Assembly (NCBI GenBank): GCA_021787665.1
Contig: JAJYLN010000006.1
Location: 17,455-81,454, forward strand
Direction of reading: 5' to 3'
Origin: a bacterium
GTDB lineage: Bacteria; JAMCPX01
Length of the DNA stretch: 64,000 nt
This document shows, in pieces, positions 4,649-62,944 of this stretch (position 1 is the stretch's first letter; every line of letters begins with the position of its first letter). The position numbers and the translations under genes are program-made. Below the pieces are notes generated by a model. That model was not told where the DNA came from, ran no database searches, and saw only the letters and a program-made list of their open reading frames with translations.

Positions 4649-4924
4649 CTATTCTTTTATTACCTCGAGCACTATCTTCGATGCCACCCCCTTCCCTATT
4701 GCTGCCTTCGTCCCTTCTGCCGCTACAATTAAGGGACCGGCCGACGTATTTAAGACCCTGACCGTACTCCCCGTGCGGATACCGATATTGAGAAGCTTCT
4801 TGAGGACCCCCATACCGCCTGAGATATGTCTGACAACTCCTTTCTCTCCCGCTTTAAGGTCAGAGAGCGGCAGCAGAACACCGGACTGCGCCTTATCGTC
4901 TTCCCTGCTGTATGTCGCTTCCAT
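4649..4924 (-). CDS. feoA: FeoA-domain protein
   Basis: A 91-residue FeoA (SH3-like) protein associated with ferrous iron transport by FeoB. The domain covers LPLSDLKAGEKGVV through GPLIVAAEGTKAAIG, with the family's GMGVLKKLLNIGI segment. The start is taken as the ATG at 4924 because a complete TTGACA-17-TATCAA promoter ends 7 nt before it; the frame is open further upstream from a TTG at 4990, but that would lie upstream of the promoter. No feoB lies next to it, so it may act as a stand-alone FeoA or work with a distant FeoB. Confidence 0.82.
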   Translation of the reverse strand: MEATYSREDDKAQSGVLLPLSDLKAGEKGVVRHISGGMGVLKKLLNIGIRTGSTVRVLNTSAGPLIVAAEGTKAAIGKGVASKIVLEVIKE

Positions 4925-4931
4925 GCTTTTA

Positions 4932-4960
4932 TTGATAATGATTTTCAACAGCGTTGTCAA
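4932..4960 (-). promoter_or_regulatory. Candidate leaderless promoter of feoA
   Basis: TTGACA (4955-4960), 17-bp spacer, TATCAA (4932-4937), then only 7 nt to the ATG at 4924 and no Shine-Dalgarno. Transcription is predicted to start at, or one base before, the start codon. Confidence 0.6.
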
Positions 4961-4990
4961 CAATTGTTTGATGTGGCCGGCATTGAACAA

Positions 4991-5336
4991 AAGCGATGCT
5001 TCATCGTTATGAAGAGTAAAAAGGACTATCTCTCATAAGGGCTTATAAAAAAGCATGGCCCCTACGGAATGCCGATGCGGTCGAGGTAGGTTATCAGGAT
5101 AGTTGTACTATCGGGGGAAACCCCATCAGGGAAATATCGCTGCGACAGACTCAGCTCACAACAGAGAGAAGGGGACCGTCCACTTTAGCATTGCTCCCTT
5201 CCTAAAGAACAGGAAAATCGGTGCACAGGTCGGTAAGGTAAATGTATTACGTAGGCACGGCTCACCCCGATGTTCCCTTTGCCTTTGCCACGCTTAAAAG
5301 CAAATCGTGGATGACAAGATAAGGATACAAACCTAT
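4991..5336 (-). other. Unassigned intergenic region, possible structured RNA on the minus strand
   Basis: About 350 bp without a convincing protein gene. On the minus strand it follows the stop of the 45-codon ORF at 5337-5474 and runs into a terminator at 5045-5078, so it is probably transcribed. It has short self-complementary elements, for example CCACG..CGTGG near 5288-5310. It did not match the landmark sequences of tmRNA, RNase P, SRP or 6S RNA, or of the common riboswitches as I know them. It may be a 3' untranslated region or a small RNA gene. Confidence 0.35.
5045..5078 (-). terminator. Rho-independent terminator (minus strand)
   Basis: On the minus strand a stem of GCAT plus GGC paired with GCC plus ATGC (one bulged C) encloses an 11-nt loop at 5053-5078 and is followed by six T. 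It ends a transcript that includes the 45-residue ORF and the structured stretch, upstream of feoA. Confidence 0.65.
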
Positions 5337-5657: not shown

Positions 5658-5686
5658 TTGACTTAAAAAGCTTTTGAAGCTACCAG
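5658..5686 (+). promoter_or_regulatory. Candidate promoter of the exchanger-hppA operon
   Basis: TTGACT (5658-5663), 17-bp spacer, TACCAG (5681-5686), then 6 nt to the ATG at 5693. The -10 is a poor match, but the geometry equals that of the other leaderless candidates and no ribosome site is present. Confidence 0.4.
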
Positions 5687-6868: not shown

Positions 6869-6882
6869 AGAAGGAGGAACAT

Positions 6883-9094: not shown

Positions 9095-9096
9095 AT

Positions 9097-9125
9097 TTGC
9101 ATTTATTTTATTTACACCCTACATA
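9097..9125 (+). promoter_or_regulatory. Candidate leaderless promoter of fmt
   Basis: TTGCAT (9097-9102), 17-bp spacer, TACATA (9120-9125), then 7 nt to the fmt ATG at 9133. No Shine-Dalgarno is present. The promoter begins directly after the hppA terminator. Confidence 0.6.
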
Positions 9126-9132: not shown

Positions 9133-10065
9133 ATGAAGATTGTATTCATGGGTAGTGCCCGGTTCAGTGTACCGGCGCTTGAGGCCATTCTACGATCGGC
9201 CCACCTCCTCACGGGCGTGATAACAAACCCGGAAGAGCCCGCAGGCCGGGGGCTCAACGTCAGGCAAACACCCGTTGCGGAGATAGCCAAAACACAGGGA
9301 ATCGATCTGCTGACGCCTGGTACCCTGAAAAATAACAGGGATGTGATTGATTGGATAAAGGCGTACAAGCCGGACGCAATTGCGGTTGTCGCCTACGGCA
9401 AGTTTATACCCTCCGCTATCCTGAACATACCGGTGCACGGCTGTTTGAACCTGCACCCTTCTCTGCTGCCAAAATACCGGGGGGCAGCACCCATTCAGAG
9501 GGCCATCATGAACAACGAGAAAGAAACAGGCGTAACAGTCATGCGTTTGGACGAAGGTATGGACAGCGGACCCGTTTTTATCCAGGAAAAGGTTGGAATC
9601 GATACGACTGATAATGCGGCGACGCTCGGGGAAAAGCTATCGAAGCTCGGCGCCGATTTGCTTATAAGAACGCTCGATCTCATCGAACAAAAACACATCT
9701 CGCCCCTCGCCCAAAAGCACGGACTTGCTACCCTTGCTCCCAAAATAAGCAAGGAAGAGGGCAGACTCGATTTTCTCAAGCCCGCGCTGTTACTCAATAA
9801 CATCGTCAGGGCACTAATCGAGTGGCCAACAGCGTGGACCACCTGGAAAAACAACCCTGTTCAGGTGCTGAGCACGGGATACACTGCCGGGGCGAACACC
9901 GATCCTCCGGGGACAATCGTTGCGATAGACAGGGTCGGTGTCCACGTCGCGACCGGCGACGGCACGCTTATTATAACAGCGGTAAGGCCTGCCGGCGGCA
10001 GATCTATGGACGCATTGAGCTATGCAAACGGAAGAAGGATCATGATCGGGGATACACTTGGATAA
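9133..10065 (+). CDS. fmt: Methionyl-tRNA formyltransferase
   Basis: A 310-residue enzyme that formylates Met-tRNAfMet with 10-formyl-THF to make initiator tRNA. The N-terminal Rossmann-type formyltransferase domain shows KIVFMGS, the folate-site LNLHPSLLPKYRGAAPIQ and the catalytic-region LDEGMDSG. A C-terminal OB-like domain follows from about residue 205. The ATG at 9133 (KIVFMGS) aligns with the family start and lies 7 nt after a -10 box. Upstream in-frame codons fall inside the promoter and are rejected. Confidence 0.95.
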   Translation: MKIVFMGSARFSVPALEAILRSAHLLTGVITNPEEPAGRGLNVRQTPVAEIAKTQGIDLLTPGTLKNNRDVIDWIKAYKPDAIAVVAYGKFIPSAILNIPVHGCLNLHPSLLPKYRGAAPIQRAIMNNEKETGVTVMRLDEGMDSGPVFIQEKVGIDTTDNAATLGEKLSKLGADLLIRTLDLIEQKHISPLAQKHGLATLAPKISKEEGRLDFLKPALLLNNIVRALIEWPTAWTTWKNNPVQVLSTGYTAGANTDPPGTIVAIDRVGVHVATGDGTLIITAVRPAGGRSMDALSYANGRRIMIGDTLG

Positions 10066-14630: not shown

Positions 14631-14658
14631 TTGACACCGGGAAGGCGTATGGTAAAGA
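14631..14658 (+). promoter_or_regulatory. Candidate leaderless promoter of the Nudix gene
   Basis: TTGACA (14631-14636), 16-bp spacer, TAAAGA (14653-14658), then exactly 6 nt to the ATG at 14665. No ribosome site. Confidence 0.6.
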
Positions 14659-14664: not shown

Positions 14665-15102
14665 ATGACTGCTTACAGGAACCCTATTCCGACGGTGGAC
14701 ATCATCGTTGAGATCGGCGATACGATCGTCCTCATAGAGAGGAAAAATCCTCCTCACGGATGGGCCATACCGGGGGGATTTGTCGACTACGGTGAATCGC
14801 TCGAAGACGCCGCTGTCCGTGAGGCACGCGAGGAGACATCGCTCGACGTGGAGCTCTGCGAGCAGTTGCACACCTACTCGAGACCGCAGCGCGATCCGCG
14901 CCACCACACCATAACAACCGTCTATATTGCCCGTATACAGCGAGGCAGGCCGGCAGCAGGGGATGACGCAAAGTCGCTTGACCTGTTTACGTTCAATTCG
15001 TTACCCGATAGAATCGCATTCGATCACAGGGATATCCTGATGGACTATTTCGCCTACAGGAAAACGGGCAGGAGACCGCCACCGGTACCATGTCGAAGCT
15101 GA
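14665..15102 (+). CDS. Nudix hydrolase
   Basis: A 145-residue Nudix protein that hydrolyses a nucleoside diphosphate linked to X. The Nudix box [20 protein letters not shown] is intact through the metal-binding REaREE, but the conserved Gly after EE is replaced (T-S-L). ADP-ribose or a related nucleotide is a common substrate of this branch; the true substrate is unknown. It overlaps the AMMECR1 gene by 13 bp, so the two are coupled. Transcription probably starts at its ATG. Confidence 0.88.
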
Positions 15103-23285: not shown

Positions 23286-23314
23286 TTGACAGCACCGATT
23301 CCCGTGAATATAGT
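23286..23314 (+). promoter_or_regulatory. Leaderless promoter of the DUF268 gene
   Basis: TTGACA (23286-23291), 17-bp spacer, TATAGT (23309-23314), then exactly 6 nt (TTTACC) to the ATG at 23321. A near-perfect consensus places +1 on the A of the start codon, and there is no Shine-Dalgarno. This is the best example of the pattern in the window. Confidence 0.75.
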
Positions 23315-23320: not shown

Positions 23321-24166
23321 ATGAAGAGGGAGGATCGGCATCCTTTGCGTTTTGAAGGAACGGAGCGCTATGGTAAAAAGATCTTAAAAAGCATACTCAA
23401 TGTACTGATTTCCTGCGGCATTAATCCGATACTATTGCTTCAAAGTTTTAGAGGAATCCCTATTTTCCTGAGAGATCTGATCAGTTTTGAAAAAAAAGTA
23501 TGCCGTGTTGCCAAACCAAGTTTTACCATTACTACGTTATACCCGATATTTAACGATCGATTCGTAGAAAGCGGTATCGCATCAGGCCATTACTTTCATC
23601 AGGATCTGCTCATTGCCAGAAGAATTTTCTTCAATACCCCAACCAAACATGTGGATATAGGCTCGAGGATAGATGGTTTTGTAGCCCATGTTGCAGCTTT
23701 CAGAGAGATAGAAGTTTTTGATATCAGGCCCTTACCCAGAAGAATTGAAAATGTTACATTTACAAGAATAGATATCATGAGGGACGATCTGGATATGCTT
23801 GATTACACAGATTCACTTTCTTCTTTACATGCCGTTGAGCATTTTGGATTAGGAAGATACGGAGATCCAATCGATCCGGACGGTCACATAAAAGGACTGA
23901 ACAATATGTATAAATTTCTTAAAGCAGGAGGTAAATTCTATCTATCCTTACCTATAGGAAAACAACGAATCGAATTCAACGCACACCGCATTTTCTCCCT
24001 TGAATATATCCTATTCCTGATCGGCGGTAAATACAGAATTGATAGATTTTCCTATGTTGATGATAACGGTGACTTGTTTGACCATGTACCGCTCGCTGAG
24101 AAGGACATTAAGCAGAATTATGGCTGTCATTATGGATGCGGTATCTTTGAATTGACCAAAGAATAA
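23321..24166 (+). CDS. DUF268 family protein, methyltransferase-like
   Basis: A 281-residue protein matching DUF268: HVDIGSRIDGFVAHVA (near residue 107) resembles a class I SAM-binding motif, and SLHAVEHFGLGRYGDPIDPDG is diagnostic. Such genes usually occur in surface-polysaccharide clusters, so a glycan methyltransferase role is possible. The gene is much more AT-rich than its neighbours, with AAA/ATA/TTA codons frequent, and stands alone between a hypothetical gene and a YwiC gene, which suggests acquisition. It is transcribed from a near-consensus leaderless promoter. Confidence 0.75.
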   Translation: MKREDRHPLRFEGTERYGKKILKSILNVLISCGINPILLLQSFRGIPIFLRDLISFEKKVCRVAKPSFTITTLYPIFNDRFVESGIASGHYFHQDLLIARRIFFNTPTKHVDIGSRIDGFVAHVAAFREIEVFDIRPLPRRIENVTFTRIDIMRDDLDMLDYTDSLSSLHAVEHFGLGRYGDPIDPDGHIKGLNNMYKFLKAGGKFYLSLPIGKQRIEFNAHRIFSLEYILFLIGGKYRIDRFSYVDDNGDLFDHVPLAEKDIKQNYGCHYGCGIFELTKE

Positions 24167-24172: not shown

Positions 24173-24937
24173 ATGGAACTTAGAGATATCCCATTTCCGA
24201 GGGAGTACGGCTCGTGGGCGATAGTGCTGACATCGTGCGCCATCGGTGTGTCCCTGCACGTCGCCGGCATCAGGTGGTGGACGCCTGCCGCGCTCGTCGG
24301 CATTGCCCTCCTTTTCATGACCAAGGCATCCATCAGCACGTTTATCAGGAGGCGGAATACTGCCCTCCTGCTGTTCACGGCGCTGTATGCGGCTGCCGGC
24401 ACCGCGCTGCTCATACCTGCGCTCCTCCGCATCGGCGTCCGGTACACTCTTGCACTGTCGGTCATCCCCCTGTGCACGATCGCCGTGTACAGCATGTCGG
24501 TATACGTCCACAGGGAGCGGGCATCGGTAACGGAGTTTTTCGCCATGGGAACGTTGACGATGCCGGTGGTATTTTTCTCCCTGGCGGAACAGGGTGGCCC
24601 GGCTGTCCGCGTCCTCGTCATCTGGGTCTTTACGTTCCTCTATTTCTCGTCGAGTATTTTCAGGGTAAAGATGCTGCTATTCGGGAAGCAGGTGTACCGG
24701 TCTGCGAACATCGTGTATCTTTCGGTGCTGACCGCATTCGTCTCTGCCATGATCCATCTCGGGATAACCAGCCCACTTTCCGCTGCCGCATTCCTGCCGT
24801 TGCTCGAGAATCTTGTCGACACGTTCAGGAGTCCGCAGCGGCCAAACCTCAGAGCAACCGGCATCAAGGAGCTCATCAAGGGCACGGCGTTCGCCTTCAT
24901 CATCGTCCTGTCCGCCCTGTCTTCCGGGCGAGGGTGA
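24173..24937 (+). CDS. YwiC-like integral membrane protein
   Basis: A 254-residue protein with about eight hydrophobic helices. The N-terminus PREYGSWAIV matches the YwiC-like signature (P-x-E-[HY]-G-x-W). Function is unknown. It starts 6 bp after the DUF268 gene without a clear ribosome site, and its last 38 bp overlap the convergent rnr gene. Confidence 0.8.
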   Translation: MELRDIPFPREYGSWAIVLTSCAIGVSLHVAGIRWWTPAALVGIALLFMTKASISTFIRRRNTALLLFTALYAAAGTALLIPALLRIGVRYTLALSVIPLCTIAVYSMSVYVHRERASVTEFFAMGTLTMPVVFFSLAEQGGPAVRVLVIWVFTFLYFSSSIFRVKMLLFGKQVYRSANIVYLSVLTAFVSAMIHLGITSPLSAAAFLPLLENLVDTFRSPQRPNLRATGIKELIKGTAFAFIIVLSALSSGRG

Positions 24938-26852
24938 GCTTTATGTCGCCGGTGAAGCGCTCGATGCTCGCGATTTCCACGCTGACCTTCTGTCCGATCT
25001 TGAACGTACGGTGGGTCCTTCTCCCCGTGGCGATGTGCCGGGCCGTGTCCGTGTAGTAATAATCGCCCGGCATGTTCTCGAAGGCAAGGAAGCCGTCGAT
25101 AAAGAAATCCTCTATTTCGACGAACAGCCCGGAGCCCGTTATACCGCTTATATACCCGGCTATGGGGCTGTCCTGTCTGTCTGCAAGGAGCCTGGCGATG
25201 AGCAGTTTATTGAGGTCTCTCTCCGCATCCATGGCCCTCCGCTCGGTTTCCGAAGAGTGATCCGCGATGTCACGAAGCCTGGCAGCCCACAGTTCGGCGC
25301 GTCCCTTCGACATAGAGCCGGCAAGCAGGTCTTTCAGTATCCTGTGCACGGTGAGGTCCGGGTACCGCCTGATCGGTGAGGTGAAATGCGTGTATAGGTC
25401 GAAGGCGAGCCCGTAATGGCCGATATTCTCGATCGAATACTTCGCCTGCTTCATGGATCTGAGCAGTGTGTAATTGACGACTTTCTCGAGGCCACTGTCC
25501 TTGACCCGGTCGAGTATGCGCTGGATGGATGCCGAATCCATGCTGTCGAAATGCGGGGGCTTCAGCCCGAGGTTATGCATGAACAGGTAGAACTCGTAAA
25601 GCTTGTCCTTGTCCGGCGGCTCATGGACCCTGTAGATGAACGGGTGCGCATTGGACGTGCAATGCGCCGCAACGCACCTGTTGGCCTCGAGCATAAACTC
25701 CTCCACCATCAGGTGCGCGACGTTCCTCTCGATCCGTGTAACGGACTGCAGGTCACCGTACTCATCCATGTTCAGCTCGATATCCGGTAAATCGAAGTCC
25801 AGACTGCCGCTCTGCATCCTGCGCTCCCGGAGGATCAAGGCGAGATCCCGCATGGTCTGCAGGTTTGAAAGCAAGTCCGGCGATGCGTGCTCCGTAGCGG
25901 ACTGCTGCCCCTGCTTGAGCATATCGCTGACGATGGTATAGGTGAGGCGTGCGGAGCTCTTGATGATGCTCGGGTAGATACTGTAGCCGATCCTCCCGCC
26001 AGCCCTGTCGAACCGCATCTCGGCCGTCATGGTCAGCCTGTCCTCGTCCGGCCTCAGGCTGCACAGGTCGTTCGACAGCACCTCCGGAAGCATCGGTATG
26101 GCCTTGTCCGGAAAATACACGCTCGTGCCCCGCGTGTACGCGTCCGCATCGACCGGGTCGTCCATACTCACGTAATGGCCGACGTCAGCGATCGAGACAT
26201 ACAGGGTGTAGCCGTGCCCTGCTCTCCTCACGAACACGGCATCGTCGAAGTCTCTGGCCGTCTCTCCGTCGATCGTCACGATAGGCATGTCGGTGAGATC
26301 GCGCCTCTTCGAACGCTCCACCTGGGGTATCGCATGATGTATCGACGAGGCATGCTCTGTCGTCTTCCGGCTGAAGACCGCGGGTAGTTCGTACTTGGCT
26401 ATGACAATCTTCTGGTCGATGTCCGGCGTACCGCCATCGCCGATCCTCTGGTGCAGCCTCGCCCTGCTCTTGTTTCCGGCATCGGTCGTTATCTCGCACT
26501 TGACCACGTCGCCGGGCTTCAGTCCCTTCGTACCCTTCTCGAACGACAGGTCGAAGTTCATATGTTTGTCGAGCGGTGAGCAGACGAGCTGACCGCTCTG
26601 CCTGGTGACCGTTCCGGTGATATACCGCATGGTCCTTTGCACTATCTTGAGTACCTTTCCCTCATACAGCTTCCCGTCACGCGCGCTCGCATCGACCATG
26701 ACGACATCGCCGTGTATGGCGCCGTTCATGTACTTGGGGGGCACGAATATGTCTTTCGGCAGGTCCGTGCTGACAAAGCCGTAGCCGTCCGGGTGGACGA
26801 ACATCGTGCCCTGCTTCTTAAAGCTCTTGGTTCTTTTTGTTATCATCTTCAT
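24900..26852 (-). CDS. rnr: Ribonuclease R / RNase II family exoribonuclease
   Basis: A 650-residue 3'-5' exoribonuclease. Cold-shock-type OB domains occupy the N-terminus (GTMFVHPDGYGFV). The RNB catalytic domain spans about residues 185-515 with TIDGETARDFDDAV carrying the catalytic aspartates. A C-terminal S1 domain (ISGITGSGLFVEI) is present. It lacks the long basic tail of E. coli RNase R. The ATG at 26852 lies 6 nt after a TAGCAT -10 box, and no ribosome site is seen. It is divergent from maf. Confidence 0.93.
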   Translation of the reverse strand: MKMITKRTKSFKKQGTMFVHPDGYGFVSTDLPKDIFVPPKYMNGAIHGDVVMVDASARDGKLYEGKVLKIVQRTMRYITGTVTRQSGQLVCSPLDKHMNFDLSFEKGTKGLKPGDVVKCEITTDAGNKSRARLHQRIGDGGTPDIDQKIVIAKYELPAVFSRKTTEHASSIHHAIPQVERSKRRDLTDMPIVTIDGETARDFDDAVFVRRAGHGYTLYVSIADVGHYVSMDDPVDADAYTRGTSVYFPDKAIPMLPEVLSNDLCSLRPDEDRLTMTAEMRFDRAGGRIGYSIYPSIIKSSARLTYTIVSDMLKQGQQSATEHASPDLLSNLQTMRDLALILRERRMQSGSLDFDLPDIELNMDEYGDLQSVTRIERNVAHLMVEEFMLEANRCVAAHCTSNAHPFIYRVHEPPDKDKLYEFYLFMHNLGLKPPHFDSMDSASIQRILDRVKDSGLEKVVNYTLLRSMKQAKYSIENIGHYGLAFDLYTHFTSPIRRYPDLTVHRILKDLLAGSMSKGRAELWAARLRDIADHSSETERRAMDAERDLNKLLIARLLADRQDSPIAGYISGITGSGLFVEIEDFFIDGFLAFENMPGDYYYTDTARHIATGRRTHRTFKIGQKVSVEIASIERFTGDIKLTLARKTGRTGR

Positions 26853-26858: not shown

Positions 26859-26887
26859 ATGCTATAGTATGTTGAACAAATGTGCAA
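26859..26887 (-). promoter_or_regulatory. Leaderless promoter of rnr, overlapping the maf start region
   Basis: TTGCAC (26882-26887), 17-bp spacer, TAGCAT (26859-26864), then 6 nt to the rnr ATG at 26852. The -35 abuts the maf ATG at 26888. On the other strand TATAGT (26863-26868) overlaps the rnr -10 and could serve maf. Confidence 0.6.
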
Positions 26888-36603: not shown

Positions 36604-36632
36604 AGTGTATCACAATTCTCCGCATTGAACAA
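36604..36632 (-). promoter_or_regulatory. Candidate promoter of lptC-lptA-lptB-rpoN-ftsK
   Basis: TTGTTC (36627-36632), 17-bp spacer, TACACT (36604-36609), 8 nt before the lptC ATG, giving a 0-2 nt leader. The -35 is imperfect. Confidence 0.4.
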
Positions 36633-40526: not shown

Positions 40527-40716
40527 ATCTACTCCGCCTCCTCAAGATCGGTGCTATCGCATTAACCCATACTTCCCGGGAAGAGTCAATTCTTAGCTCA
40601 GGCGGCCTTACCCTTGCCATTTCTGCTGTTTGAATATACAAAATTCGAATAACCATGCGGGCCGGCACGGAGATCGACCCATGGTTTACGCTGTAGAGCT
40701 ACAGTGTTTTTAGCTT
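40527..40716. other. Intergenic segment at the left edge of the glycan island
   Basis: No gene is supported here. It contains a small palindromic stem CTGTAG-AG-CTACAG at 40691-40704 followed on the plus strand by TGTTTTTAG, which could terminate plus-strand transcription, although no plus-strand gene leads into it. Confidence 0.3.
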
Positions 40717-40887
40717 TCATTCAATCTCTTCTATAAAGGTGTATAAGTCTTTAGCTCCGGATCGAAGATTTGCAAGAATCAACCCGTCGTCCATTGTCCA
40801 ATATCCGTGAACAAGTGCATGGCGGAACTTAAAGAAAGGCTGAAGATTGGCAAATACCCGGTCGGAAATGTTCCCTTCTTTGATCAC
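40717..40887 (-). pseudogene. HepT-like HEPN toxin remnant (C-terminal part)
   Basis: About 56 codons on the minus strand encode a HepT C-terminus. It has KFRHALVHGYW, matching the RX4HXY active-site motif of HEPN RNases, then MDDGLILANL and LYTFIEEIE. An in-frame TAG sits four codons before the first possible start (GTG at 40887), so the N-terminal half is missing. No adjacent MntA-type partner remains. It marks the left edge of the low-GC island. Confidence 0.65.
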
Positions 40888-41115
40888 TGTCTTTGTCTAC
40901 AATAAGTCTCCCATTCAACACATGCTGCAAATATAGGCAAAAATAACCCTTTCCTCTCTTTCTAAAACATTTTTTTATAGAGCCTACAATATCCATACCT
41001 CTTTCCCTTTGTCAATTGTGTAGCCCTGACCCCAGTCTTTTCCCTCTTTTAATTACACGTGGTTACTTCTACATAAGAGGTCTTTTTTACCCACTCACTT
41101 TGGAGAAGAGCCAAT
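40888..41115. other. AT-rich intergenic segment with a possible mobile-element scar
   Basis: No intact gene. A minus-strand frame of about 57 codons starting near 40996 has a weak ribosome site but no recognisable family. The minus-strand stretch GGGGTCAGGGCTACACAATT (around 41017-41036) resembles the GGGGTCAGG-type edges seen near REP-associated transposase genes in some genomes. This is suggestive only. Confidence 0.3.
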
Positions 41116-42927: not shown

Positions 42928-42934
42928 TCTATTT

Positions 42935-44128
42935 TTACATTTCTTTGAAAGAATCAATTAATCCATTCCCTATATGTTCCCATGAGTAATTCAATGTTAC
43001 CGTTCTTCTTGCTTCTTCGCCAATCGTTTTTCTCCTGGAATTATTTTTCAGGAGATCTATAACTGCTCTCGCAAAAGCTTTTGGATGGTCTTCAATACAA
43101 ATGTCTTTGCCGTTTGTGACCTTCAGCCCATCTGCTCCACGGGAGGTTGCAACCACCGGTTTTTTTAGCGCCATGGCTTCGAGGATCTTTGTCCGTGTTC
43201 CGCTACCCTGCAAAAACGGTGCAACCATCAGAGCATGTCTTGTCATAAATTGAACAGCATCGGGGACATACCCGGTTATAATTATGTTTTTACCGTCCGA
43301 AAATCGCCGGAGATCTCCGGCAGGGTCTTTCCCGGCAATATAAAACTTCACGCCCGGGACAGCCTGCTTTACCGAAGGGAATATCTTTTCAAGAAAATAA
43401 GAAACAGCCTGCACATTGGGAGGATACCGCATAAGCCCGATAAAATAAACAGAGTTTTGTTCCTCAGGTTCATTGGAAACAAATCTGTCTAGATCTACCC
43501 CATTGGGAATGACTGCTCTCTGCACATTCGGCGCTATCTCTTTTATTTTTGTATCTTCTGACTCGGATGTGGAGACTATAAGGTCAAAATACGGCATGAA
43601 CCTCTTCTCATTGATAACCATCGATTTCCAGAACACATAATAAGGAGATCGCTTCAACAGGTTGCTGTCATTGTAAAACTGTTTCCAGAGGTCTGCCTCG
43701 ATATTGTGCGCATCAAGGACGGTTTTTATACCCGAAGTGTTGAACATGGGAACGTACGGAGCAAGCCATGAATGTTCAATGATGGCAAAATCCGGTCTCA
43801 CTGCTTTTATGTAATCTGCAAGAATGTTTCTCGCCGCTGCGTAAAGGAAGGTGTCAACCGACGGATTTTTCAAAAACAGCATCCTCCTGCCATTTCTCAG
43901 CAGTTTACTGACAATATCTTTCCTGTGCTTCGGGACGTTTATGGTGATGCAATTCTTGCAGTATTTCATGAGTTCTGATGTTTCTAGGGCTCGCTGTTCA
44001 ACGAGAAAAGAAAAAAGATAGATCTCAAACTTTTTACTGAGCGCTTTTATTATATTGAATGTCCGTATGTGACCACCTTCATCAAGCGGCCAGGGGAAAT
44101 AGGGAGAAAGGACAAGGAGTTTCTTCAT
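42935..44128 (-). CDS. Family 4 glycosyltransferase (GT-B fold)
   Basis: A 397-residue GT-B glycosyltransferase. SPYFPWPLDEGGHIRTFNI lines the acceptor side, VLDAHNIEADLW is in the linker region, AVIPNGVDLDRF follows, and the C-terminal nucleotide-sugar site reads GSGTRTKILEAMALKKPVVA with the Glu of the EX7E motif. It probably adds a sugar to the island's glycan. Confidence 0.88.
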   Translation of the reverse strand: MKKLLVLSPYFPWPLDEGGHIRTFNIIKALSKKFEIYLFSFLVEQRALETSELMKYCKNCITINVPKHRKDIVSKLLRNGRRMLFLKNPSVDTFLYAAARNILADYIKAVRPDFAIIEHSWLAPYVPMFNTSGIKTVLDAHNIEADLWKQFYNDSNLLKRSPYYVFWKSMVINEKRFMPYFDLIVSTSESEDTKIKEIAPNVQRAVIPNGVDLDRFVSNEPEEQNSVYFIGLMRYPPNVQAVSYFLEKIFPSVKQAVPGVKFYIAGKDPAGDLRRFSDGKNIIITGYVPDAVQFMTRHALMVAPFLQGSGTRTKILEAMALKKPVVATSRGADGLKVTNGKDICIEDHPKAFARAVIDLLKNNSRRKTIGEEARRTVTLNYSWEHIGNGLIDSFKEM

Positions 44129-44178
44129 GTCTGTAACAGTTTAATCCGAAGACTTAAACACTGATGCACGCATGTTCT

Positions 44179-47163: not shown

Positions 47164-48184
47164 ATAGGAGACCCAAGGCATTGAGTAATGTTTGGGCAAT
47201 AGCATCCCACGTTATCCCGGCAATCGATTCCTTGCCATTCTTTCCCATCGTTGAAGCTTTTTCAGGATTGTTGTACAAAAAAGCAATTTTCTCTGCAATG
47301 AGCCTTGGATCGGGTTCGCAGACAAAGCCGCTTCGATTATCTTGAACAAAATGTGCAGGTTCTCCAGAATCAGAACAGGTTAAAACAGGTTTTTCGCTTT
47401 TGAACGCTTCGAGTGTTATATAACCATAGTCCTCATGGATTGGAACAAAAGGTACTGCCAGTGCATTCGAATATAAATCGACGAGTTCTTCATCGCTGAC
47501 CCTTCCCAGGAACTCTATCCTTTTATCCTTTTCTGCCAGCGCATAGAGTTTTTCTTCATCTTCGCCGACGCCCGCTATCTTGAGGCGTACAGACTCTCTG
47601 ACATATTTCATGGATTGTATAATTAAATCCACCCGCTTCCACCGATGCAGCCTGCCCGGAAGGAAAAGGTATTCCTGGTATTTCCCCGGCTTGAAATTAT
47701 CATACGCCAACGCAGGATGCAACACTTCACTTTTCAGGCCATTATACCGAAGCAACCTATTTGAAACGGTGTTCCCAATGGTGAACACCTTTTTGACGCG
47801 TGGATAATGTAATGCGGCCGTATCAAGCATAGTAATAAATTTTCTCTGTTCCAATAATTCGGGAGTCGGACAGAGAAATTCATTCTCAAACATATCATAA
47901 AAAACCCGCATGGTATGTACCAGATAACAAATATGATTCTTATGCCTGATAAGATAGGAAGGTGCTTTTGTAGAGATGACACCATCATAATCAGAAAGAT
48001 CTGTATCATAAAAATTCAGCAAGGACTCTTTGATCCTGTCGAAGTTTGACTCGTCGCCCACCAAGCCGATCATATCCGTTTGGATATCCCATGCCTTAAG
48101 AGCGGCCACGAGACCGTCATAAAAACGTTCTGCCCCTCCCCTTTCTTTGTTCTTCGATGTTACCGTGACAACAGCGACCTTCAT
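47144..48184 (-). CDS. Family 4 glycosyltransferase
   Basis: A 346-residue GT-B enzyme: KNKERGGAERFYDGLV near the N-terminus, FLPGRLHRWKRVDLIIQSM, FVPIHEDYGYITLEAFKSEKPVL split over the C-terminal site, and SGFVCEPDP. It overlaps the preceding methyltransferase gene by 4 bp and the fusion gene by 20 bp, so the three are translationally coupled. Confidence 0.88.
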   Translation of the reverse strand: MKVAVVTVTSKNKERGGAERFYDGLVAALKAWDIQTDMIGLVGDESNFDRIKESLLNFYDTDLSDYDGVISTKAPSYLIRHKNHICYLVHTMRVFYDMFENEFLCPTPELLEQRKFITMLDTAALHYPRVKKVFTIGNTVSNRLLRYNGLKSEVLHPALAYDNFKPGKYQEYLFLPGRLHRWKRVDLIIQSMKYVRESVRLKIAGVGEDEEKLYALAEKDKRIEFLGRVSDEELVDLYSNALAVPFVPIHEDYGYITLEAFKSEKPVLTCSDSGEPAHFVQDNRSGFVCEPDPRLIAEKIAFLYNNPEKASTMGKNGKESIAGITWDAIAQTLLNALGLLYDRQTV

Positions 48185-49821
48185 CCTTTGTAACCTATTA
48201 TTGAAAAGTCCTGCTCCATGTTCATTCTATACAAGACTTCATCGACAAACTTTTGATTTGTATAGTCTGGTTCTTTGATTTTATGGAGTTTTAATATCTC
48301 TGTGTTTAAGAACCCTCTTTGCCTCGCGAGAAATCGCAGGGTTTCTGGTGGGAGTGGGTGAAGATGGGTGGGATCTACATAAAAATTACATGCCCCCACT
48401 ATCAGATTTTCAGGATTTGGCGTTTCAAATAGTATCATACCGCCGGCTTTTAAGGTTCGAAAGCATTCATCAAGCAGGCGAATCAAAATTGTAAACGGTA
48501 TATGCTCAACAATATGATACCCGGTGATTATATCCAATGAATCCGATTTTTGTTCTCTCAGATATTGTATGACATCTGCCTCCGTAGCATCAAGGCCAAG
48601 CTCGCCGCATTGTTGGACCATCATTCTATTTATATCTATGCCTTTTGCATGGTATCCGTTTTCTTCCAGCAACTCCAGCCATTCCCCCCTACCGCAGCCG
48701 ATGTCCACTATGCTGGCTTCAGCTCTATCAGGCTTCATCTTCTCAACGGTCGGCAGATAAACTTTTAATCTTTCCTTGATATCGGCACGCGCACCCCTGA
48801 ATTGATTCTCAAATGCAACATACAGGGCGTCAAGAATATGACTTTCAGTTTTTACGATATTCTCTGCCGGCCCTTTCGTGACCTGTTCCGGCAGTTTCAT
48901 TTTTACCTGTTCCAGCAACGCGGTAATGGTTCTTTGTTGATTCAGGATATCTAATTTGTTCTCTTCAACTTTATTTGCATCAGCTTTGCGCGACAATTCA
49001 TTCTTAATATCACCAACCACTTGAACATCGGCTTTATTCTTTAATTCATTTTTTACTTCATCTACTGCTTGAACATCGGCCTTATTCCCTAATTGATTTA
49101 TTACTTCATGCACTGCTTGAACATCGGCTTTATCCGTTAATCCATTTTTTACTTCATCTACCGCTTGAATATCGGCTTTATCCTTTAATTCATTTTTTAC
49201 TATATCTACCGCTTGGACATCGGCTTTTGCTGACAGGCCCTTGCTTACTTGAGCAAATTGCTGATCAGTATACACTTGAGATTGTTCAATGTTTGTTACT
49301 ATCTTGGGTAATTGTACTATTGCTGTTGTAACCCGCAGCATGTATCCAAACAATGGTATGCGATAGGATACATTAACGAAGTATCTAAGAAATAAACCCT
49401 TTATTTTTACCCCCTGTTCCCTGCCCTCCTTTGAGTATCTCAGAATGCCAAGTATCTGGAGTTTATTGAGTTTATTTGCTTTTAATTGAGACACATAAAG
49501 ATTAAACCCAGCTTCATCAGGTATCCTTTTAAGGATACCTGAATAGGCATGTGTAATGAAATCTTCACCATTATCTTTTAAGAGGTCTTCCAGGGAGGCA
49601 TAGTCTTTATACTTGGAAATATGTTTTTTAAACTTAAAAGCAATCTTATAGACAACGTTATAAAATGGATACTCTTGTAATTTATGTTGGGCCTTCTTGA
49701 TAAAAGTCCAGGTCCTTGCTTCACTCGCCTGAGGCTTTCCTTTCAAGGATTTTTCTGCTTTCTTTTTAGACAATTCTTCCCTGATCTTCTCCATGATTGC
49801 ATCTACATTAATTTCTGGCAT
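48181..49821 (-). CDS. DUF4214 / 16-residue-repeat / methyltransferase protein
   Basis: A 546-residue protein with an unusual layout. A short helix (MPEINVDAIMEKIREELSKKK) is followed by a DUF4214 domain (residues ~70-135: ITHAYSGILKRIPDEAGFNLYV). Next come six tandem 16-residue units starting KAD[VI]QAV (residues ~199-285), predicted coiled coil. The C-terminal class I methyltransferase has VDIGCGRGEWLELLEENGYHAK split at ~371-393 and DIITGYHIVEHI. The layout recalls chain-length-controlling O-antigen methyltransferases such as WbdD. The ATG at 49821 has AAAGGA upstream and is preferred to an ATG 15 nt earlier. Confidence 0.85.
   Translation of the reverse strand: MPEINVDAIMEKIREELSKKKAEKSLKGKPQASEARTWTFIKKAQHKLQEYPFYNVVYKIAFKFKKHISKYKDYASLEDLLKDNGEDFITHAYSGILKRIPDEAGFNLYVSQLKANKLNKLQILGILRYSKEGREQGVKIKGLFLRYFVNVSYRIPLFGYMLRVTTAIVQLPKIVTNIEQSQVYTDQQFAQVSKGLSAKADVQAVDIVKNELKDKADIQAVDEVKNGLTDKADVQAVHEVINQLGNKADVQAVDEVKNELKNKADVQVVGDIKNELSRKADANKVEENKLDILNQQRTITALLEQVKMKLPEQVTKGPAENIVKTESHILDALYVAFENQFRGARADIKERLKVYLPTVEKMKPDRAEASIVDIGCGRGEWLELLEENGYHAKGIDINRMMVQQCGELGLDATEADVIQYLREQKSDSLDIITGYHIVEHIPFTILIRLLDECFRTLKAGGMILFETPNPENLIVGACNFYVDPTHLHPLPPETLRFLARQRGFLNTEILKLHKIKEPDYTNQKFVDEVLYRMNMEQDFSIIGYKG
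48939..49227 (-). repeat. Six 48-bp coding repeats
   Basis: The coding sequence for the KADVQAVDEVKNEL-type units repeats with an exact 48-bp period (six units, the last degenerate). The DNA units remain similar (for example ACATCGGC/TTTA/TCATTTTTTAC blocks), so unit number could change by slippage or recombination and alter the predicted coiled-coil length. Confidence 0.85.
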
Positions 49822-49883
49822 GTTATTCCTTTCCATGACAACTCCATAAATAGTTATTGTGTAGCTTTATGGTGCTGCTGCAT

Positions 49884-51479
49884 TTAAAAATACCCAAGGG
49901 CTTTCAATTGCTTCACAATCTTTTCTTTTTCGCCGGCTACGGCATGGTTTTCTGCGAAAATACGTTCGCCAGCAGTGGCTTCCTTTTCGATTTCCGATAC
50001 GGTGCCCAGAACTTGGTGAAAGTCACGCAAAACATGTATGTCAGAAGCTGCGGTTATGGGTGTTTCCTCATAAGGATCTGCTTGTAAATCAAAGGCGAAA
50101 TAATTTGGATTTGTTCTTGCTTCTTCGGAAGATAAGAACTCTTTCCATTTTTCCCTGCGTGTAAAGAGTCTGTTTTTTAACGTCTTAACATGGTATTCAA
50201 GTCCTTCCGGTTCCTCCCATCGTCCAAGAACTTTCCTGTAGAGCGTTTTAATGAATTGCTCGTCGTCAAGTATTGTATCATCTAACGCCACATCTTCTTG
50301 TTTGCCCCTCATAACGAATTTCCTGTCTGCCGTCCTGATGGACCTTTGACTGAGCAACCACTCATTATCGTCCATAAATTGATGCGGAATTAATGGATTT
50401 CCACGCTGATCCTCCGATAGGTCAGCATTTCTTCGTGGCGACCATTTTTCCGAGAAGGCCTCTTTTCTGACCTGGTGGACAGGTACGGCATCAAGGGCAT
50501 GTTCCGGTTTAAAAGATATACTTGAGAGTTCCAGAATGAGTACGAATATATCGCAGACAGACAATAACCTGTGGTCTGTTGAAGGCTGTACATCCCTGTG
50601 GAGGATAAACAGCGGCACCCTCAATACGTTGTCGTAAAGGTCTCCGCCGTGAGAAAAGAAGTCAGGGTTGTAGCGGTCGCATTTTCCCTCGCCATGATCT
50701 GAAAATATAACAATAAGACCGGTATCGAAGAAGTCCATTCTGGTGAGCACTTCCGTAAAAAGTTTGAACCTTCCGTAATCGAATTTTGTAACCCCCTTTA
50801 CATATATCGGCAGCATATGCTGCACATGCCTATGGGTGCTATCAGAAAACTCTCGCCACAGCGTGTGAGGCCTCCTATCCTTAATTTCTATACCCTGCTG
50901 TTTGTAAAGAGTTTCCATTAAAACAAAATAATCATTATTATAGTCTTTGGAGCTTGGTGTTTCGCTGAATAAATAGGGTTCGTGTATATCAAAAAAATGT
51001 ACAAACACAAACAACTTATCTTTTTTATGGTTTGCCATAAAAGTATATAACCCTTCATCGTCTCTTTCGAAAAGATGATCGAATCCCCTTGTCAGGTCCA
51101 AGGGTTTAAATAATGCCATGACGTCTGTAGCAAACACCGTTATGTACCCGTTATCTTTAAAGATCTCTGCAAGCGTCTTTATATTTCTGTTGAGCTTGGT
51201 GTCATAAAAAGCCCTTACGCCGTGGTGCGGAGGATAAAGACCTGTAAAAACGGAAGTATGTGCCGAAGTTGTATAGGTGTTTGTACTGAAACACTGGGTA
51301 AAGCAGAGTGCCTTTGCAGAAAGTTTGTCTAACGTCGGAGTCTCAAGGAGAGACGTAACATTATATTTATCCAGTTCTTTCTTGTCCGGTTGATAACCCA
51401 CACAATCAAATCTCAGGTTATCGATCGATATAAGTATGACTTTGTCCGGAGTGGATCTTTTAACGTTAAACATGGTCAT
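49884..51479 (-). CDS. Alkaline-phosphatase-superfamily (sulfatase-fold) protein with DUF4214
   Basis: A 531-residue protein. The N-terminal sulfatase-like fold has ILISIDNLRFDC (metal ligands, D20/N21), VFTGLYPPHHGV and FSDHGEGK. At the nucleophile site the sulfatase C-x-P-x-R is replaced by Thr70 with His74, so it cannot carry formylglycine; phosphodiester or phosphotransfer chemistry is more likely. Near residues 400-455 a DUF4214-type segment (FIKTLYRKVLGRWEEPEGLE, then FLSSEEAR) is inserted or appended, the same domain as in the neighbouring methyltransferase. It overlaps the APS-kinase-like gene by 14 bp. Confidence 0.8.
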   Translation of the reverse strand: MTMFNVKRSTPDKVILISIDNLRFDCVGYQPDKKELDKYNVTSLLETPTLDKLSAKALCFTQCFSTNTYTTSAHTSVFTGLYPPHHGVRAFYDTKLNRNIKTLAEIFKDNGYITVFATDVMALFKPLDLTRGFDHLFERDDEGLYTFMANHKKDKLFVFVHFFDIHEPYLFSETPSSKDYNNDYFVLMETLYKQQGIEIKDRRPHTLWREFSDSTHRHVQHMLPIYVKGVTKFDYGRFKLFTEVLTRMDFFDTGLIVIFSDHGEGKCDRYNPDFFSHGGDLYDNVLRVPLFILHRDVQPSTDHRLLSVCDIFVLILELSSISFKPEHALDAVPVHQVRKEAFSEKWSPRRNADLSEDQRGNPLIPHQFMDDNEWLLSQRSIRTADRKFVMRGKQEDVALDDTILDDEQFIKTLYRKVLGRWEEPEGLEYHVKTLKNRLFTRREKWKEFLSSEEARTNPNYFAFDLQADPYEETPITAASDIHVLRDFHQVLGTVSEIEKEATAGERIFAENHAVAGEKEKIVKQLKALGYF

Positions 51480-52017
51480 ATTCCCCTGATTTAACCAAAA
51501 TCTTTTTTTCTAACAAAGAAGTCTGCAATGCCATGAAACTTTCATCTATAGTACATGTATCCGTTTCAATAGCGAGGTCTGGGGTTAACGGCTCCTCATA
51601 AGGATCATCTACGCCGGTGAAGTGCTGCATGAGCCCCCGTCGTGCCTTTTTATACATGCCTTTGACGTCCCTTCTTTCGCAAATAGCAACGGGGCATTTT
51701 ACATATACCTCAAAAAAAATATCGGCGAGCTTCTTTTGCTCTTCTCTGACCGCTCTATAAGGGGAGATAGCCGCAACGATGACGTTTATGCCGTGTTTGT
51801 TCAACAGCCTGCTCAGCCAGCCTATTCGCCTGATATTTTCATCCCTGTCCTCCTTGGTGAATCCAAGTCCCCGCGTGAGATACTGTCTGACGACGTCGCC
51901 ATCGAGGAGTTCAACATTCATCATGCCGCCTTTCTGTACATGGTCATACAAAAGGGTAGCCAGGGTCGTCTTGCCAGAACAGGGCAGACCTGTGAACCAT
52001 ATTGTAAAGCCCTTCAT
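51466..52017 (-). CDS. cysC: Adenylylsulfate kinase-like protein (CysC family)
   Basis: A 183-residue P-loop kinase matching APS kinase throughout: GLPCSGKTTLA, ELLDGDVVRQYLTRGLGFTKEDR split after LGF, ISPYRAVREEQ and FTGVDDPYEEP. The family makes PAPS from APS. In glycan loci, CysC relatives can also phosphorylate other nucleotide intermediates (for example in phosphoramidate capsule modification). No sulfotransferase or CysND is seen here. It overlaps both flanking sulfatase-fold genes. Confidence 0.85.
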   Translation of the reverse strand: MKGFTIWFTGLPCSGKTTLATLLYDHVQKGGMMNVELLDGDVVRQYLTRGLGFTKEDRDENIRRIGWLSRLLNKHGINVIVAAISPYRAVREEQKKLADIFFEVYVKCPVAICERRDVKGMYKKARRGLMQHFTGVDDPYEEPLTPDLAIETDTCTIDESFMALQTSLLEKKILVKSGEYDHV

Positions 52018-52856
52018 TTCAGCGGCCCCTCAACAAAGGGTACTTCAAAAACCTTTTCATGCATGATGGGACCATGACCAAAGAACCCTCGTTCTCCAAA
52101 GAGTTCACCGTGGTCTGCGGTAACGATAACATAGGTATTTGAGGGACATTTATCTAACAGTTTTCCCATCACCCCATCGATATATTCGATACATTCGATC
52201 TGCTTCTTCTTGAACCGCTTCAACATACTCCTGTTAAAAAAAGCGGGAGGCTTGTCGGCTTGGGTCGGGTCCTCCTCGGTAGCATTCATGAGATCATCCA
52301 TGTGTTTGAATACGCCGTGAAGGCCGTGCATCTTGGGGTAAACTACAGGGTCTTCCCCGGGGAGGACATACGGGTAATGTGCCTCGCCCACATTAAGGAA
52401 ATAGAAACAGGGCCGGGAACCATCAAATGTAATTTCATCGACCATACCGGAAAAGTCGTTGTGATGGTCCATAAGCTTGTAATCATCGAAAAATGCAGAA
52501 AAGCCGGTAAACTTATTGAGCACCGGCAGGGATACCTTTGCAATCGTTTTATAGCCGAGAATCTTGAGCACCTTGGGAAGACTCAATTCAGGAACAAAAT
52601 TTTTAAATGTCAGCTCGGTCCCGATCCGCTGGGTCCACAATCCAAGCTCTTTTTTATATACTTCTGAGGCAAATATGCGCGCGGGGTTACGGTGGGGCAT
52701 AAGTCCCATGAGATAGACGTAATGGGAAGGCGATGTCCAGCTTGCATAGCTGTACCGTTTTTGCACCGCGCCCAATTTCTTTATATTGCTGGTTTCCGCA
52801 TTTATAAAGTTATCGTACCGTGCGCTATCGATGATAAGAAAGATGATATTGTTCAT
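52014..52856 (-). CDS. Short alkaline-phosphatase-superfamily (sulfatase-fold) protein
   Basis: A 280-residue protein, much shorter than typical sulfatases (~450). Metal-site features are IIFLIIDSARYD (D10) and VTADHGELFGERGFFGHG. The nucleophile region reads W-T-S-P-S-H-Y, so Thr41 stands in for the formylglycine cysteine and His45 for the Arg. It is therefore unlikely to be a sulfatase and may be a phosphodiesterase or phosphotransferase acting on the glycan. It overlaps the CysC-like gene by 4 bp and appears to lead the cassette. Confidence 0.78.
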   Translation of the reverse strand: MNNIIFLIIDSARYDNFINAETSNIKKLGAVQKRYSYASWTSPSHYVYLMGLMPHRNPARIFASEVYKKELGLWTQRIGTELTFKNFVPELSLPKVLKILGYKTIAKVSLPVLNKFTGFSAFFDDYKLMDHHNDFSGMVDEITFDGSRPCFYFLNVGEAHYPYVLPGEDPVVYPKMHGLHGVFKHMDDLMNATEEDPTQADKPPAFFNRSMLKRFKKKQIECIEYIDGVMGKLLDKCPSNTYVIVTADHGELFGERGFFGHGPIMHEKVFEVPFVEGPLK

Positions 52857-52881
52857 GCTAAATAATTCCGCTATCCTTAAA

Positions 52882-53256
52882 CTATTTTTCCACTTTTTTT
52901 ACAAATATTGCCAAATCACTGAGTATTTTCTCTGCAACTTCTTTTTTAATATCGCTAAACTTGTAATCAGAATCCTCTCTTTGTTTTCTTAAGAATTTAT
53001 AGATCTTTCCATATTCTTTTGGAAAGATCTCTGCTTTCACGAAAAATTGATTAAAAGCTGACTCTACCCCTGAGTGCTTTACCCTCTCACCATCTTTTGT
53101 AAGCAGCATTGCGTTGGTAATGGCGAAGATAGAATAGTACGCCCTGTTTGCCAATGCTCGGTATCTTTTAGATTTAAAAAGTTCCCGTGCAGTTTCAAGA
53201 TCTTCTTGAGCTTTTTCTAAACGTTTTTTGACAAGAACCTTTACGTTTTTGTCCAT
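52882..53256 (-). CDS. HEPN domain protein (partner of MNT nucleotidyltransferase)
   Basis: A 124-residue all-helical HEPN protein: EKAQEDLETARELF, then RALANRAYYSIFAITNAML and HSGVESAF. It lacks the RX4HXY RNase motif, so it belongs to the non-toxic or accessory HEPN branch that pairs with minimal nucleotidyltransferases. It overlaps the MNT gene by 16 bp, a typical MNT/HEPN two-gene module. Confidence 0.85.
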   Translation of the reverse strand: MDKNVKVLVKKRLEKAQEDLETARELFKSKRYRALANRAYYSIFAITNAMLLTKDGERVKHSGVESAFNQFFVKAEIFPKEYGKIYKFLRKQREDSDYKFSDIKKEVAEKILSDLAIFVKKVEK

Positions 53257-53597
53257 AAATCAGTTCCATATTTTTCTATCTGGTTGTAGAGAGGATCTCT
53301 GTACTCTTTGTACCAGTTAAATTCTCTCCTATCCATAACTAATGGAGAGAGGACTACAAGGTTTTTCAACTCAGGATCAAAAGAAAGCATAGCAACCTTG
53401 CTTTTGAATTTCCAATCATTCTTTTTTACAACTACCAGGATATCTACATCAGATTCGCTGTCATAGTCGCCTCGCACAAAAGAACCAAACAACCTTACAT
53501 TGAGTATGTCGTTTTTAAATCTTTTTCTTAATACTTCCAAATACTGTGTCATCGCTCTTTTAACCTTTAAAGGTATTGGTTTATTTTTGGATTTCAT
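53241..53597 (-). CDS. Minimal nucleotidyltransferase (MNT domain)
   Basis: A 118-residue nucleotidyltransferase with G-S-F-V-R-G-D-Y-D-S-E-S-D-V-D-I-L (the GSx10DxD catalytic motif) near residue 38. MNT proteins of this kind can AMPylate their HEPN partners. The gene begins inside the reading frame of a broken PIN-type fragment. Confidence 0.85.
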   Translation of the reverse strand: MKSKNKPIPLKVKRAMTQYLEVLRKRFKNDILNVRLFGSFVRGDYDSESDVDILVVVKKNDWKFKSKVAMLSFDPELKNLVVLSPLVMDRREFNWYKEYRDPLYNQIEKYGTDLWTKT

Positions 53598-53652
53598 ATT
53601 CTATTGATGCAACAATGACAGAAGTATCTACCGTTATTTCTTCGATCATCAT
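53581..53652 (-). pseudogene. PIN/VapC-type toxin N-terminal remnant
   Basis: A 23-codon frame begins with ATG at 53652, overlapping the stop of the 90-residue ORF (ATGA), and reads MMIEEITVDTSVIVASIEYE before a stop. The ITVDTSVIVAS core is the first strand of a PIN domain with its catalytic Asp. The rest of the domain is gone, and the MNT gene starts within it. Confidence 0.5.
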
Positions 53653-53921
53653 TTTTCTTTTAGCTGTCTCATTTCTTCTACGGCCGTGTACCCTTTCCCT
53701 TGAGCAGATACATCTTTCATAAGAAGCGTCCATCCAGAAATCTGTCTATCTGTAGTCTTCCCATTTTTAATTTTTGGGAGCATACTATCCTTTTGTATTT
53801 CTTTACTGTCATGAAGCATGTGATTTAATTTTGTAGATAGCTTATCTCTTAAGATCGCCCTATAACCTCCTTGATAACGATGATAGTATAATACGTTATT
53901 GAAATCAAGACATGCTATCAT
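53649..53921 (-). CDS. Hypothetical protein, possible degraded VapB-type antitoxin
   Basis: A 90-residue frame. The first ~20 codons overlap what looks like a promoter (TTGATT..TATACTATCAT) and an AAGGAGG ribosome site (around 53857-53863), so the true product would start near codon 23 (AILRDKL...), where no ATG remains. The C-terminal SAQGKGYTAVEEMRQLKEK resembles small antitoxins. The overlap with the PIN fragment suggests a former VapBC pair whose antitoxin start has decayed. Confidence 0.35.
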   Translation of the reverse strand: MIACLDFNNVLYYHRYQGGYRAILRDKLSTKLNHMLHDSKEIQKDSMLPKIKNGKTTDRQISGWTLLMKDVSAQGKGYTAVEEMRQLKEK

Positions 53922-54009
53922 GTTAAAATTGATGGCCAGTCAGCACATTTGGAACAGAGCTGTACCCTTCCTTGCGTTGAAAATAAAAGCGGTTTCCGGC
54001 ACCAAATCC

Positions 54010-61674: not shown

Positions 61675-61675
61675 A

Positions 61676-62908
61676 TCAGTCCACGACCGCTCCCTTCGGT
61701 ATGACTACGATGCCCTTGTCCGATACGGTGAGCCTTTTCCTGTCTTTTTCGAGGTTATAGCCGATGACCGCATGGGGCATGATCCTGACATCCTTGTCGA
61801 TTATCGCACGCTTGATCTTCGCGTATCTGCCGACATCTACCCGCTCGAACAGGACCGAGTCCTCCACGGTGGAAAACGAGTTTATCCGTACCCCCGGGGA
61901 GAGTATGCTCCGGCTTATCCGGCCGCCGCTGATGATACACCCCTCGGAGACCATGGAGTCTGTCGCGAGCCCGATCCTCTTCGTCTCCTCGTCTGCAAAT
62001 ACGAACTTCGCCGGCGGGTACGGGGGATAGAAGGTCCTTATGGGCCATTCGAAGTTATAGAGGTTAAGCATCGGCGTCACGGACACGAGGTCCATGTTCG
62101 CCTGCCAGTAGCTGTCGATCTCGCCCACGTCCCTCCAGTAACCCGCAGCACCCTTCTGCTCGCCGGGCACCATGTTCTTCGAGAAGTCATAGGCCTTTAC
62201 GGCGTATCTTTTTACAGCCGCTGGGATCAGATCGCGGCCGAAGTCGTGGCCGGACTCGTTCTTCGCGTCCCGCTCGAGCAGCTCGATCAGGACGTCTGTA
62301 TCGAACAGGTAGTTGCCCATCGAACACAAGGCCATGCCTGCCCTGCCCGGGATAGGTCTCGGGTCCGACGGCTTCTCCTTGAAACCGGTAATGCTCCCGT
62401 TTCTGTCGACCTCTATGACCCCGTATGAGCCGGCCTCCCTGAGGGGATACGGTACGGCCCCGACCGTGACTTGGGACGATTTTTTTACGTGGAAGTCTAT
62501 CATCTGTCGGATGTCCATCTTGTAGATGTGGTCACCGCCGAACACGCATACGAGGTCCGGGCCCTCGTCATGGACGAGGTTCAGGTTCTGATAAACCGCG
62601 TCAGCAGTGCCCCGGTACCAGTCTTTCCCGATACGCATCTGTGCCGGGACCATGTCGATGGAGTGGCCTATGGAGGGAGAGAGGTGCCATGCCCTCGCAA
62701 CGTGGGAATTGAGCGACTCGGACTTGTACTGGGTAAGCACCTTAATCCTGTAGAGGCCGGCGTTGATGAAATTGCTGAGCACGAAATCGATGATCCTGTA
62801 TCTCCCGCCGAACGGTACGGCAGGCTTGGCCCTGTCCTTCGTGAGGGGATGCAGTCTCTTCCCCTCCCCGCCTGCAAGGACCATGACCAGTATCTTCTTA
62901 CTTATCAT
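61676..62908 (-). CDS. glgC: Glucose-1-phosphate adenylyltransferase
   Basis: A 410-residue ADP-glucose pyrophosphorylase that starts glycogen synthesis. The N-terminal GGEGKRLHPLTKDRAKPAVPFG split after RLHPL is the nucleotidyl site. FGGDHIYKMD, FKEKP and WRDVGEIDSYWQAN are catalytic and substrate segments, and a C-terminal beta-helix completes it. It leads the glgC-GH57-GH57-fba-nptA-SDR run and has a promoter 6 nt before its ATG. Confidence 0.95.
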   Translation of the reverse strand: MISKKILVMVLAGGEGKRLHPLTKDRAKPAVPFGGRYRIIDFVLSNFINAGLYRIKVLTQYKSESLNSHVARAWHLSPSIGHSIDMVPAQMRIGKDWYRGTADAVYQNLNLVHDEGPDLVCVFGGDHIYKMDIRQMIDFHVKKSSQVTVGAVPYPLREAGSYGVIEVDRNGSITGFKEKPSDPRPIPGRAGMALCSMGNYLFDTDVLIELLERDAKNESGHDFGRDLIPAAVKRYAVKAYDFSKNMVPGEQKGAAGYWRDVGEIDSYWQANMDLVSVTPMLNLYNFEWPIRTFYPPYPPAKFVFADEETKRIGLATDSMVSEGCIISGGRISRSILSPGVRINSFSTVEDSVLFERVDVGRYAKIKRAIIDKDVRIMPHAVIGYNLEKDRKRLTVSDKGIVVIPKGAVVD

Positions 62909-62914
62909 ACGGGT

Positions 62915-62944
62915 ATACTATCATCGATGCGCGCCGGCAGTCAA
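62915..62944 (-). promoter_or_regulatory. Leaderless promoter of glgC
   Basis: TTGACT (62939-62944), 18-bp spacer, TAGTAT (62915-62920), then exactly 6 nt to the glgC ATG at 62908. No Shine-Dalgarno. Confidence 0.62.

Follow-up and report, generated by a model that had tools for sequence, protein, structure and literature searches.

Translation without an untranslated leader is widespread among bacteria, and several well-described systems bear directly on the DNA considered here. In the genomic survey of Zheng et al. 2011, a TANNNT motif about 12 bp before the start codon was found in 207 of 953 bacterial genomes from many phyla, including 8 of 33 delta-proteobacterial genomes with an average of 15.8% of genes, and with a figure of 26.5% for Aquificae (PMC3160421). 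Throughout Deinococcus-Thermus, a -10 box lying directly upstream of the open reading frame gives rise to leaderless mRNA as a common mode of expression (Zhong et al. 2025, PMC12340547). In Caulobacter crescentus, 375 leaderless mRNAs were identified by 5′-end mapping and ribosome profiling (PMC4117421), and 5′-end mapping in Sinorhizobium meliloti identified 171, with ATG starts (PMC3616915). A sequence-only reading of a 64,000-nucleotide stretch of bacterial DNA (the window) proposed that complete promoters recur immediately before start codons lacking a Shine-Dalgarno (SD) site, and described such transcripts as less documented in diderms bearing lipopolysaccharide (LPS). The survey figures for delta-proteobacteria and Aquificae, and the mapped mRNAs of Caulobacter and Sinorhizobium, make that last statement too strong. 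Here we compare the promoters of the window with the remainder of the genome and with related genomes.

Promoters adjacent to start codons in the window

Promoter strength was evaluated using a composite -35/-10 score based on approximate E. coli matrices, with spacers of 15-19 nt and every gap before the start considered, and a score >8 counted as a match; the composite was adopted because TANNNT alone at starts peaked weakly. Six -35/-10 pairs are present exactly as originally described, and the Pfam domains agree with the gene identities assigned to them (FeoA, Formyl_trans_N/C, NUDIX, DUF268, RNB and NTP_transferase).

4932..4960 (-): feoA promoter; -35 TTGACA at 4960-4955, 17-nt spacer, -10 TATCAA at 4937-4932, 7 nt to the ATG at 4924
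4933..4947 (-): Fur-box-like sequence TGAAAATCATTATCA (TGATAATGATTTTCA on the + strand), covering the spacer and -10 of the feoA promoter
4649..4924 (-): feoA; Pfam FeoA, 2.4e-16
9097..9125 (+): fmt promoter; -35 TTGCAT at 9097-9102, 17 nt, -10 TACATA at 9120-9125, 7 nt to the ATG at 9133
9133..10065 (+): fmt (methionyl-tRNA formyltransferase); Pfam Formyl_trans_N/C
14631..14658 (+): Nudix promoter; TTGACA at 14631-14636, 16 nt, TAAAGA at 14653-14658, 6 nt to the ATG at 14665
14665..15102 (+): Nudix hydrolase gene; Pfam NUDIX, 8.5e-22
23286..23314 (+): DUF268 promoter; TTGACA at 23286-23291, 17 nt, TATAGT at 23309-23314, 6 nt to the ATG at 23321
23321..24166 (+): DUF268-domain gene; Pfam DUF268, 1.8e-16
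26859..26887 (-): rnr promoter; TTGCAC at 26887-26882, 17 nt, TAGCAT at 26864-26859, 6 nt to the ATG at 26852
24900..26852 (-): rnr (RNase R); Pfam RNB, 4.8e-111, with OB_RNB from residue 15
62915..62944 (-): glgC promoter; TTGACT at 62944-62939, 18 nt, TAGTAT at 62920-62915, 6 nt to the ATG at 62908
61676..62908 (-): glgC-type nucleotidyltransferase gene; Pfam NTP_transferase, 2.6e-63

The gap between the -10 and the ATG is 7 nt at feoA and fmt and 6 nt at the other four genes, which agrees with the proposed range of 6-8 nt and makes 6 the commonest value. None of the six starts has an SD, sought as GGAG, GAGG or AGGA within -18 to -4. The DUF268 promoter has the highest score of the window's set (15.7), and those of glgC (12.1 at gap 6) and feoA (11.4 at gap 7) also exceed the threshold; the -10 of fmt is weak by score. 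The Fur-box-like sequence at feoA differs at two positions from TGATAATCATTATCA, and both it (locus L229) and the promoter layout recur at feoA in the relative G004, the only one read for this gene. Because this sequence lies over the -10, iron control of feoA by promoter blocking is plausible, with presumed binding of Fur to a putative box.

Three weaker cases had been put forward alongside these six, and their fates differ.

1503..1531 (-): lpxC promoter-like pair; TTTAAT, 17 nt, TATTTT, 6 nt to the ATG at 1496
5658..5686 (+): promoter of a Na/Ca exchanger-family gene; TTGACT, 17 nt, TACCAG (a weak -10), 6 nt to the ATG at 5693
36604..36632 (-): weak lptC promoter-like pair; TTGTTC, 17 nt, TACACT, 8 nt to the ATG at 36595
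6870..6882 (+): for contrast, the SD-led start AGAAGGAGG...ATG of the operon-internal gene at 6883, read from the sequence

The lpxC pair holds up well, with a good score of 10.6 at gap 6. The exchanger promoter has a moderate score of 5.8 at gap 6, but its spacing is conserved in the relative G003 (TTGACT-17-TACCGA-6-ATG). The lptC pair scores 9.4 at gap 8 only if translation begins at the downstream ATG 36595 rather than at 36625, and so stands only with that choice of start. Taken singly, the exchanger, lptC and the -10 of fmt (by score) are weak cases.

The organism is identified as an LPS-making diderm because LpxC, LptA, LptB and LptC are encoded. Within the window, a region of low GC content at 40500-54000 (0.40, versus 0.50-0.58 in its flanks) carries genes of glycosyltransferase and methyltransferase type and is possibly an acquired polysaccharide cluster. 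An Rfam scan of the window returned no RNA families, and a viral-contig search with an FtsK-like protein returned no matches.

Genome-wide distribution of promoter-to-start gaps

The analysis was extended to 1.61 Mb of the 2.25-Mb genome, sampled as stretches and containing 542 unit-leading and 445 operon-internal genes called with a purpose-built codon-usage model, with start codons predicted. The null was provided by 200 dinucleotide shuffles, and 350 kb of E. coli K-12 with 166 unit-leading genes was taken through the same pipeline as a control. Among the unit-leading genes, matches number 25 of 542 at gap 6 and 14 of 542 at gap 7, compared to 4.9 +/- 2.3 at other gaps (Poisson p of 1e-10 and 6e-4, respectively), and gaps 0-5 yield 1-4 matches each. 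The count against shuffled upstream regions that had been suggested as a check gives 38 of 542 genes with a match at gap 6 or 7 versus 5.1 +/- 2.4 in shuffles (maximum 13); for any single gap, a gene reaches a score >8 by chance in 0.9% of cases. The peak withstands four variants of gene calling, comprising three other caller settings and a plain most-upstream-ATG rule.

Chance occurrence of -10-like hexamers in A+T-rich DNA near starts is expected to contribute about five of the 38 genome-wide matches, and single cases of the lptC type fall within its reach. The shuffles and gap profile rule it out as an explanation for the whole set, those weak single cases excepted, and we give it almost no credence: the peak is confined to gaps 6 and 7 rather than spread over 0-12, orthologous promoters are retained in position, none of the 445 operon-internal genes has a match at gap 6, and the 166 unit-leading genes of E. 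coli K-12 have none at gaps 1-12.

The genes with adjacent promoters also differ in their translation signals. An SD is found in 8% of the gap-6/7 genes, compared to 34% of all unit-leading genes and 55% of those with a promoter at gap 18-39. Considering the -10 motif alone, TANNNT occurs at gap 6 in 21 of 435 SD-less genes (7.3 expected) versus 1 of 229 genes with an SD. The start codons of the matches are ATG in 38, GTG in 2 and TTG in none, versus 508, 92 and 24 in the remainder. Most gap-6 cases have C or T at -1 and A at +1, like a normal transcription start. This last feature bears on the alternative that the promoters are real but the mRNAs carry leaders of 1-5 nt or have multiple starts, and so are not strictly leaderless. 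Transcription does not always start exactly 7 nt after the -10, the +1 shifting by one or two bases, and the 14 matches at gap 7, the few at gap 8 and the variation from 6 to 8 nt among fmt orthologues could all reflect such leaders. However, the commonest gap of 6 places +1 on the A of the ATG, and a pyrimidine at -1 with A at +1 suits a start at the ATG. We regard short leaders as a serious but less likely reading, and one of little translational consequence, since 1-5 nt cannot hold an SD.

Relative to the operon-internal background, gaps 6-8 show an excess of about 41 genes and gaps 10-49 one of about 142, so the majority of detectable promoters sit further upstream. From these counts, leaderless starts are predicted for roughly 6-8% of unit-leading genes, and they would account for about a fifth of the promoters that can be detected. 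This share is probably a lower bound, because some starts will have been wrongly called. The association with unit-leading genes in the sequence-only reading thus survives in part: at gap 6 the signal is confined to such genes, but it marks a minority of them and is not their rule. Its label of housekeeping fits several of the examples.

Conservation and exchange within the family

For comparison, eight further genomes of the family were examined together with that of the window (G000), making nine. The relatives are metagenome-assembled genomes labelled 'bacterium' or 'Deltaproteobacteria', for which the isolate names suggest an acid-mine origin; among the genomes compared, the next relatives beyond the family share only the rank of domain. 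Eight of the nine retain the fmt promoter: the -35 resembles TTGCAT, the -10 resembles TACAxA, and 6-8 nt separate the latter from the start codon, in genomes whose Fmt proteins are 58-68% identical. G004, the most distant (Fmt identity 51%), does not keep the exact spacing and has a TATAAT 10 nt upstream of the ATG, and the block was not seen at fmt in genomes outside the family. At rnr, seven genomes share TTTGCAC...TATAGCAT with a 6-nt gap before the ATG, the exact spacing not being retained in G002 and G004. The core of this promoter, ATnCTATAGCAT / ATGCTATAGCAT, forms a near-palindrome in the -10 region (26859-26870, - strand). As a separate observation, ATGCTATAGCAT is nearly invariant across the seven family genomes, and the element could serve as an operator in addition to a promoter. 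Further leaderless candidates keep their promoters in G003 or G004; among them are a Fur-family regulator and a CoaE-like kinase, the latter named solely on the basis of its N-terminal sequence. Samples of about 0.5 Mb from G003 and G004 show a gap-6/7 excess in the same direction, although small (5 versus 2.4 and 4 versus 1.9). For the DUF268-domain gene, a homologue was sought in the eight relatives and none was found.

Homologues also address the concern that start codons have been misplaced, such that translation truly begins further downstream, behind an SD, and the promoters drive ordinary leadered mRNAs. The lptC pair fits only one of several candidate starts, and some of the matches rest on automatic start choice. 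Yet Formyl_trans_N begins at residue 13 of a longer TTG-initiated frame, which is the called ATG 9133; because the domain begins exactly there, the longer frame is not the fmt start. Similarly, alignments with homologues begin at residue 1 for Nudix wherever the gene is present, for GlgC in 7 of 8 relatives and for LpxC in nearly all, and the peak remains under the most-upstream-ATG rule. On these three grounds misplaced starts are rejected as a general account, and we consider them highly improbable. The genome-wide peak, the contrast between leading and internal genes, the exclusion of SD sites and conservation in the family together uphold the original proposal that leaderless starts on unit-leading genes coexist with SD-led ones.

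The Nudix gene (loci L269, L271 and L273, near position 1500) provides an instance in which the two arrangements replace one another. A promoter of the form TTGACAC...TATGGTA, with the -10 at gap 6, precedes the gene in G000, G001, G003 and G007, the block in the last three reading TTGACAC...TATGGTA(A/G). In G007 an interval of 51 nt separates the upstream gene from the Nudix ATG, and the promoter sits within it. In G002 and G005 an upstream gene with the same C-terminal sequence as that of G007 stops only 7 and 9 nt short of the ATG; these two genomes lack the promoter and instead carry an SD there, GGAG or GAGGTGAG. This pattern is as expected if a gene heading a unit can be leaderless and would need an SD once inside a unit. 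More tentatively, from this one locus so far, whether a gene of the family is leaderless or SD-led might follow its operon position in evolution, with unit-heading genes long keeping a promoter that abuts the ATG and genes that come to lie directly behind an upstream gene exchanging that promoter for an SD, even between species of one genus. If general, gene order and not gene function would decide between the two initiation modes, and a gene could pass freely from one to the other. The locus also offers a natural comparison of one gene that appears leaderless or SD-led depending on the species, in which the costs and benefits of each mode are testable.

Probable leaderless initiation and its relation to known systems

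The placement of the promoters, their statistical excess, the exclusion of SD sites, conservation and the exchange with SD in relatives are direct observations. They are best explained by leaderless initiation, which for roughly 6-8% of unit-leading genes is very probably the correct account, with +1 assigned from promoter position. In this mechanism promoters of sigma-70 (RpoD) type would be placed so that transcription begins at, or 1-2 bases from, the A of the ATG, and the resulting mRNA would have neither leader nor SD. The ribosome would then take the 5′-terminal AUG directly. Direct recognition of a 5′ AUG occurs via the 70S ribosome or a route assisted by IF2 and initiator tRNA. A minority of unit-leading genes would use this mode, while operon-internal genes and most others would use SD sites or longer leaders. 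The genome encodes RpoD, IF3 and a six-domain S1 protein. With RpoD encoded, a TTGACA-like -35 and a TATAAT-like -10 about 17 nt apart correspond to sigma-70 promoters; a TANNNT-type box at a fixed distance of about 12 bp, the lack of an SD, an ATG start and the first position in a unit correspond to the TA-led genes of the survey.

These results extend mixed initiation modes in bacteria to an LPS-making lineage that is uncultured, show orthologous leaderless promoters kept in position family-wide, and provide a practical rule for start-codon placement in genomes of the family. The leaderless mode described here is real and statistically strong, but already known from many bacterial phyla. As in the TA-led genes of Zheng et al. 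2011, a TANNNT about 12 bp upstream replaces the SD in a minority of genes (PMC3160421); the present family is not matched to a surveyed group, and a clear -35 and conservation among orthologs are examined here in addition. The -10 box abuts the open reading frame as in Deinococcus-Thermus (PMC12340547), although here leaderless initiation is a minority mode beside abundant SD sites in an LPS-making diderm. Caulobacter and Sinorhizobium are likewise LPS-bearing diderms in which leaderless genes coexist with leadered ones; their transcripts were mapped experimentally, whereas those described here are inferred from sequence.
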